The position numbers were made by a program, and so were the translations under genes. Positions 5,951 through 7,265 of a DNA stretch of 33,501 bases are shown one piece after another. Source of the stretch: Comamonadaceae bacterium (lineage in GTDB: Bacteria; Pseudomonadota; Gammaproteobacteria; Burkholderiales; Burkholderiaceae_C); contig CANGCI010000004.1 in the NCBI GenBank assembly GCA_947451995.1, positions 1 to 33,501 on the forward strand, written 5' to 3'. Numbering within the stretch: position 1 is the stretch's first letter; each line of letters starts with the position of its first letter. A model generated the notes under the pieces. That model saw nothing but the letters and a program-made list of their open reading frames with translations, did not search any database and was not told the DNA's origin.

Positions 5951-6130
5951 TCAGATAGCGACAACCTCAAAGTCAGCCTTGGCAACACCACAATCAGGGC
6001 ATGTCCAGTCTTCCGGCACATCGGCCCACAAAGTACCCGGTGCAATGCCATCTTCGGTGCGACCTTCAGCTTCGTCATAGACAAAGCCGCAAACGATACA
6101 GATGTAAGTTTTGAAATTGATATTGCTCAT
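5951..6130 (-). CDS. Rubredoxin (stand-alone)
   Basis: The 59-residue protein is a complete rubredoxin: [15 protein letters not shown] holds the first CxxCG knuckle and [17 protein letters not shown] holds the second, with the usual spacing and [14 protein letters not shown] between them. The track start at 6226 is rejected because it overlaps the rubrerythrin gene and adds a non-rubredoxin leader; ATG 6130 gives the standard length. It lies 46 bases downstream of a diiron rubrerythrin that lacks its own rubredoxin domain. The likely role is to pass electrons to that partner in peroxide or oxygen reduction in the cytoplasm (inference). Confidence 0.96.
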
Positions 6131-6176: not shown

Positions 6177-6665
6177 TCAAGCACTTGCAGTAATTCTGTC
6201 GAGCTGCGCCTTGTAATGCTTGGCATGCCGCTCTTCTACATTGGTCAGGGCTGCAAAACGTTTTTGTGCTTTCACCAAAGTCGCTGTGAATTGTGCAGCA
6301 TGAATTTTAGACTCTTCAATTTGTTCGTTCATTTCGGCTACCGCTGCAGCATTGCCTTCTAATTCTGCGGTCTTTCGGAAGCCAGGATACATTTCGGTGT
6401 ACTCGTAGGTTTCGCCATCAATTGCAATTTGCAAAGCCTTTGCGGGCGTCATGGTCGCTTTCGGATAAAGCAAATCAAGGTGTCCAAAAGCATGCATGAC
6501 TTCTTGGTTGGCCGTTTCTTCAAAGGTTTGCGCTGTTTCTTCATCACCCATCTCTCGGGCAAGCTTGGCAAAGTAACGGTATTTGATATGGGCCATCGAT
6601 TCGCCAGCAAAGGCAGCCTCTAAATTGGCCATGGTTTTGATTTCGGGTCGAATTGTGGTGGTCAT
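6177..6665 (-). CDS. Rubrerythrin, diiron ferritin-like domain only
   Basis: The 162-residue protein has the rubrerythrin four-helix bundle: [14 protein letters not shown] with Glu22, [15 protein letters not shown] with Glu55/His58, [20 protein letters not shown] with Glu85/Glu88, and [11 protein letters not shown] with Glu118/His122. A further [12 protein letters not shown] helix (Glu145/His147) ends the chain, where classical rubrerythrins carry the rubredoxin domain. That domain is encoded by the next gene instead. Start ATG 6665 has AAGGAAA a few bases upstream. Family role: peroxide reduction under low oxygen. An FNR-like palindrome sits about 70 bases upstream in the divergent promoter region. 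Confidence 0.94.
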
Positions 6666-6734
6666 TTGAATTTCCTTGCTTGGTTGAAATGAATCAAGAC
6701 AAACGCAATGGTATGGGTCTGGACTAGATCAAGA

Positions 6735-6748
6735 TTGACATACGTCAA
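6735..6748. promoter_or_regulatory. FNR/Fnr-type box TTGACATACGTCAA in a divergent promoter
   Basis: TTGAC-ATAC-GTCAA is a perfect inverted repeat with the 4-bp spacer of FNR/FixK/Anr-type sites (TTGAYnnnnRTCAA). It lies between the rubrerythrin gene (minus) and a conserved hypothetical gene (plus). Possible -10 hexamers sit on both sides: TAGATT at 6770-6775 for the plus gene and TACCAT (minus strand, 6708-6713) for rubrerythrin. Both would place the box near -41 of each transcript, as in class II FNR promoters. The sequence match is direct; the regulation is inference. Confidence 0.7.
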
Positions 6749-6806
6749 GACAAAACCGACCAAAGCGTGTAGATTGAGATGCACTCACCCACTCAAAAGC
6801 GCCTGT

Positions 6807-7265
6807 ATGCCAACGAACCATCAAATCGGTCTCATTGCACTGATCAAAAGATCGCGCCCCATCAACCTCATCACGGGACCGATCATTTACAGCATGGTTT
6901 TCCCCATCATGCTGCTTGATCTTTGTGTCTCGTTTTACCAATCGACCTGTTTTCCCATTTATGGCATTCCAAAGTTCAACCGAAAAGACTTCATTATTTT
7001 TGACAGACAAGAGTTGAAGTACTTGGACTGGGTGTCTAAGTTTCACTGCACCTACTGTGCTTATGGCGTAGGTGTGGCAGCTTATGTTCAAGAAATTATC
7101 AAAGCCACAGAAGCTTACTTTTGTCCTGTTAAACACAAAGAGAAAAACCTCATGGCAACGCACAAACATTGGCAGGCCATTGCCTTTGAACAAGGACCCG
7201 ATTTTGATTTTGAGGCCTACTTGGAAAAAGTCCGAAACCAAATGACTCAAAAACATGAGCCTTGA
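6807..7265 (+). CDS. Conserved hypothetical protein with CxxC and CP cysteines
   Basis: The protein is about 152 residues long. From memory it resembles a family of proteobacterial conserved hypotheticals with no settled function. A hydrophobic segment (LITGPIIYSMVFPIMLLDLCVSFYQ) looks membrane-embedded. It is followed by CFPIYGIPKFNRKDFIIFDRQELKYLDWVSKFHCTYCAYGVGVAAYVQEI and EAYFCPVKHKEK. The four cysteines in FHCTYC, YFCPVKH and TCFP could bind metal or a cofactor. ATG 6807 is preferred over the track start at 6708, which would run through the putative promoter and adds a low-complexity basic leader. The FNR-like box 58 bases upstream and the divergent rubrerythrin gene suggest a role in low-oxygen or redox physiology (inference). 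Confidence 0.75.
   Translation: MPTNHQIGLIALIKRSRPINLITGPIIYSMVFPIMLLDLCVSFYQSTCFPIYGIPKFNRKDFIIFDRQELKYLDWVSKFHCTYCAYGVGVAAYVQEIIKATEAYFCPVKHKEKNLMATHKHWQAIAFEQGPDFDFEAYLEKVRNQMTQKHEP

Follow-up and report, generated by a model that had tools for sequence, protein, structure and literature searches.

A single FNR-type palindrome between two divergent transcription units of a Comamonadaceae genome is strongly supported, by its sequence and conservation, as a class II activator site of a gene for an uncharacterised Cys4/His protein. The balance of evidence favours a reading in which Fnr at this site would activate that gene and, in this lineage, probably the rubrerythrin and rubredoxin genes on the other side as well. 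The site lies in a stretch of 33,501 nucleotides (the window). The initial annotation had proposed that one dimer here serves two divergent promoters; the palindrome and both -10 hexamers are real and located where it placed them. The features concerned are as follows.

5951 to 6130, minus strand: rubredoxin (PF00301, 77.6 bits)
6177 to 6665, minus strand: rubrerythrin without a rubredoxin domain of its own, 162 aa (PF02915, 54.4 bits)
6684 to 6697, no strand assigned: second TTGAN6TCAA, in the rubrerythrin 5' leader; ATGATTCATTTCAT in G478, CTGATTGATTTCAG in G350 and G279
6708 to 6713, minus strand: TACCAT, -10 element of the rubrerythrin promoter
6735 to 6748, no strand assigned: FNR-type palindrome TTGACATACGTCAA
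6770 to 6775, plus strand: TAGATT, -10 element of the promoter of the uncharacterised gene
6807 to 7265, plus strand: uncharacterised protein, 152 aa, with 13 close orthologues; start corrected from 6708

The intergenic region measures 141 bp and separates the rubrerythrin-rubredoxin genes (minus strand, 6665-5951) from the uncharacterised gene on the plus strand. The palindrome, centred at 6741.5, fits TTGA(T/C)-N4-(A/G)TCAA and is followed after 21 nt by TAGATT on the plus strand and, after 21 nt as well, by TACCAT (6713 to 6708) on the minus strand. If the hexamers are taken to span -12 to -7, they imply starts at 6782 and 6701, with the palindrome centre at -40.5 from both, a mirror-image class II geometry. 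The earlier starts were 6783 and 6701, of which the latter is unchanged and the former was recomputed. On the plus side, the start is implied by a -10 element that is conserved in relatives, and the spacing counted from this implied start would be in line with a centre near -41.5 ± 4.

The bare motif TTGAN6TCAA is common, with 212 sites in the genome and, when one mismatch is allowed, 40 in the window versus 27 expected, so the palindrome alone proves little and the case is carried by geometry and conservation. The more demanding class II pattern TTGAYN4RTCAA-N20-22-TANNNT gave 10 matches on both strands of the 2.4-Mb assembly versus 1 in a backwards control, and 498 versus 29 across 90 genomes of the genus. 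Downstream of it in the window's genome are uspA genes, a gene for a ccoI-like ATPase and one for an MBL-fold hydrolase; judged from sequence, the pattern picks up typical targets genome-wide (uspA, the ccoI-like ATPase). Palindromes with a -10 element on both sides occur only twice in the genome, at 6735-6748 and between uspA and the ccoI-like gene, while 0.04 are expected by chance from the base composition of the whole window, a value that would be higher in AT-rich intergenic DNA.

Conservation of the palindrome follows the uncharacterised gene. A perfect TTGAN6TCAA lies at most 230 nt upstream of the gene in 24 of the 32 clade loci, which are related sequences rather than 24 independent events, versus about 0.6 expected (background of about 0.019 per 230 nt). 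The perfect site is missing from the other 8 clade relatives and from all 13 loci of the next clade. When -10 scores were averaged over 26 sites, the class II gap of 21 nt was the best among 57 gaps scored, and -10-like hexamers in relatives peak 21-22 nt downstream of the site (TAAATT, TACATT, TAAACT, TTTAAT, TCTAAT and others). Some relatives (L097, L105, L106) carry the site and no good -10 element at this gap. That the palindrome is a chance match is extremely improbable: the frequency of the bare motif speaks for it, but the excess among clade relatives and the peak of the -10 score at the class II gap speak against it. The upstream neighbours, named by reading their sequences, vary (LysR, dienelactone hydrolase, pyruvate dehydrogenase E1-like, CaiB-like and others), and some are co-directional and end just before the site. 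With neighbours this varied, some of them reading in the same direction, the site belongs to the uncharacterised gene. The closest relative of this gene (L002, in G005) has rubredoxin and no rubrerythrin beside its FNR site.

The uncharacterised gene itself is assigned the ATG at 6807, because homologues align from M-x-TNHQ; the first ATG of the open reading frame (6708) was rejected as the start. Its product has one hydrophobic segment at about residues 19-52. C81, C84, C106 and H110 are present in 59 of 59 relatives and C48 in 58 of 59, which suggests that the conserved residues form a metal or redox centre. The protein matches no Pfam family, NCBIfam gave nothing above cut-off, and the PDB yielded no convincing sequence match and no fold match; structure models reached a pLDDT of 53 in a first prediction and 79.8 in a second with 59 sequences. 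Relatives with an extra N-terminal region constitute long forms. Among the genomes searched, each gave one match at E ≤ 0.001, of either the short or the long form, and genomes of the genus seem to carry one or the other and not both (L001-L007 vs L010-L030). In long forms of the same genus, a perfect TTGAN6TCAA lies 60-61 nt before the ATG in 4 of 19, and three more have a motif with one mismatch at 47-52 nt; these motifs mostly have no -10 element at the class II gap. None of the 26 long forms from other genera has a perfect site. Within the genus, FNR control of the family may therefore extend beyond the short form.

A regulator fitted to the site is encoded in the genome. One of the three Crp-family proteins found is Fnr by NCBIfam NF008365 (236.8 versus a cut-off of 228). 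Its gene (L046, 928-1677) encodes an N-terminal CSNCNLRELC cluster, a further cysteine in HSCDA and an ETVSR helix, so that both the 4Fe-4S cysteines and the FNR recognition helix are present. TTGACTTAAATCAA at L046 818-831 precedes the fnr start by about 100 nt and could be a site of autoregulation. As the assembly is 81% complete, a further regulator may have been missed. Dnr-type proteins, which sense nitric oxide, read half-sites similar to those of FNR, and the presence of three Crp-family proteins gives some room for a Dnr-like reader of the palindrome; the other two, however, fall below every model cut-off and are distantly like CRP or FtrB, and the FNR cysteines occur in one protein only, making this reading very unlikely. 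The named members of the window's genus among the genomes used here are Limnohabitans (Comamonadaceae), with G030 being Limnohabitans sp. Rim11 and G001 being MMS-10A-178; a literature search found no paper joining Limnohabitans and FNR.

On the minus side, rubredoxin is probably co-transcribed with rubrerythrin across a 46-nt gap. Rubrerythrin promoters of other genera carry TACCAT, TATCAT, TAGCAT or TAACAT at a fixed place, and the rubrerythrin -10 element is invariant in five aligned sequences. Because TACCAT is the -10 element conserved in these genera, the minus-side hexamer picked by the initial annotation is the conserved one. The promoters of other genera read roughly GATAG-N3-CTATCAATNGATTAG-N6-TCAATTGG, followed after about 20 nt by TACCAT or TATCAT; this LysR/OxyR-like box is strongly conserved ahead of rubrerythrin across genera (L136-L159). 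The box is present upstream of rubrerythrin in other genera and absent from the window, where the FNR palindrome occupies its position with the 21-nt gap to the -10 element. When six genomes were scanned for the box with 0-1 mismatch, it was found, where present, only at rubrerythrin, and the scan gave no rubrerythrin match in the window's genome or in G478. At one locus of the window's genus that was checked (L083), a divergent LysR gene adjoins rubrerythrin; it is nearest to OxyR and scores below the cut-off (234.6 versus 329).

The second TTGAN6TCAA, at 6684-6697, was considered as a further FNR site and rejected: it lies just past the implied rubrerythrin start, relatives retain only TGATTNATTTCA there, and it is probably not an FNR site. 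In several other genera (L136, L140, L158), the rubrerythrin leader has a possible hairpin near the implied 5' end of the mRNA, and the hairpin in the window's leader (6666-6701, minus strand) is weak.

Comparison across related genomes, proposed earlier as a check on the palindrome, bears it out for the uncharacterised gene and not for rubrerythrin. Only one other genome, G478 (L079/L093), pairs the two genes, and there the box is partly kept (CTATCAAGCAATTAG, TCAATTGG) and the FNR site is more distant by about 60 nt, standing 137 nt from the rubrerythrin ATG, which by its position is too far for class II activation. At 29 rubrerythrin loci of other genera and 6 further ones of the same genus, the latter having a different upstream region, the roughly 250 nt ahead of the gene contained no perfect FNR site. 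A palindrome at the class II gap from rubrerythrin is not conserved in relatives, and the double arrangement at rubrerythrin is known from one genome only. The comparison speaks against one dimer for two promoters as a general rule; the plus-side half of the proposal is supported, with a class II site kept beside changing neighbours in most clade relatives and Fnr encoded in the genome, and the minus-side half is supported for this genome only, where the conserved TACCAT is at the class II gap. Fnr control of rubrerythrin is plausible as a lineage-specific feature, not a conserved one.

The same facts leave room for a narrower account, in which the FNR site serves the uncharacterised gene alone, transcription of rubrerythrin from TACCAT is Fnr-free (basal or driven by some other activator) and a shorter intergenic region has produced the 21-nt gap as a side effect. 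It accords with conservation of the site with the plus-strand gene alone, whatever lies upstream, with the position of the site in the comparable genome G478, where it is ill placed to activate rubrerythrin, and with the lack of perfect sites ahead of rubrerythrin elsewhere. Nevertheless, both the ancestral box and the CAATTGG element are gone from the window and no good -35 hexamer was seen, so that TACCAT would be weak alone; furthermore, a palindrome placed anywhere in the 141 bp would fall at a gap of 20-22 nt in about 2% of cases. This account is somewhat unlikely, though substantial.

In the preferred reading, that of activation on both sides, the genome's Fnr would bind the palindrome at 6735-6748, and under low oxygen the dimer at -40.5 would activate the uncharacterised gene in class II fashion, the role in which the site would be conserved. 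That dimer would, in this lineage, also face the retained -10 element of rubrerythrin-rubredoxin in mirror image and probably activate that operon as well, the FNR site having replaced an ancestral activator box of the LysR/OxyR type. A point against this is that polymerases at both promoters might be mutually exclusive within 141 bp. A fuller history is offered tentatively, at just short of even chances: rubrerythrin-rubredoxin would have moved from LysR/OxyR-like to low-oxygen Fnr control through an intergenic rearrangement that kept its -10 element, brought the neighbour's FNR site to the class II position and would thereby let one dimer co-activate a peroxide scavenger and a Cys4/His membrane-type protein.

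In E. coli, the site falls at -41.5 ± 4 in 19 of the 23 FNR-activated promoters whose start is known, and at -40.5 in focA-pflB and yfiD (PMC3688515). The present arrangement resembles the class II FNR promoters of that organism (dmsA, narG, nirB, focA-pflB, yfiD), in which a palindrome near -41.5 is followed by a -10 element about 21-22 nt beyond (PMC3688515), but here one palindrome faces two divergent -10 elements, with the genes for an unnamed protein and a rubrerythrin as targets. A parallel exists within the genome: at G000:C125:3045-3058 (L171/L172), a single palindrome with class II -10 elements on both sides separates a universal stress protein gene, uspA, from a heavy-metal-associated-domain gene that reads like ccoI. 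Most of the genus's genomes with listed matches again show an overlapping plus/minus pair like the one at this palindrome, whereas the double arrangement at rubrerythrin occurs in one genome; the uspA/ccoI-like palindrome is an internal precedent for one site facing two divergent genes. The proposed mechanism would be ordinary, and what appears new is that an unnamed Cys4/His family would be under FNR control and that rubrerythrin has probably undergone a lineage-specific promoter switch. Such control would link to low oxygen, in freshwater Comamonadaceae, a family in which four cysteines and a histidine are conserved, and give a first handle on its function; the FNR site belongs to this family in many freshwater bacteria, and the link to rubrerythrin to this genome only. 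The rubrerythrin resembles those that lack a rubredoxin domain (ferriperoxin; the 'aerobic-type' lineage) in being single-domain (PMC3317640, PMC5114695), but differs from them in that a separate rubredoxin gene follows. Elsewhere in the rubrerythrin family a LysR/OxyR-like box precedes the gene, whereas here an FNR site does, which illustrates at the level of sequence how control of a stress gene may pass from one regulator to another, with the same -10 element and a different activator site.
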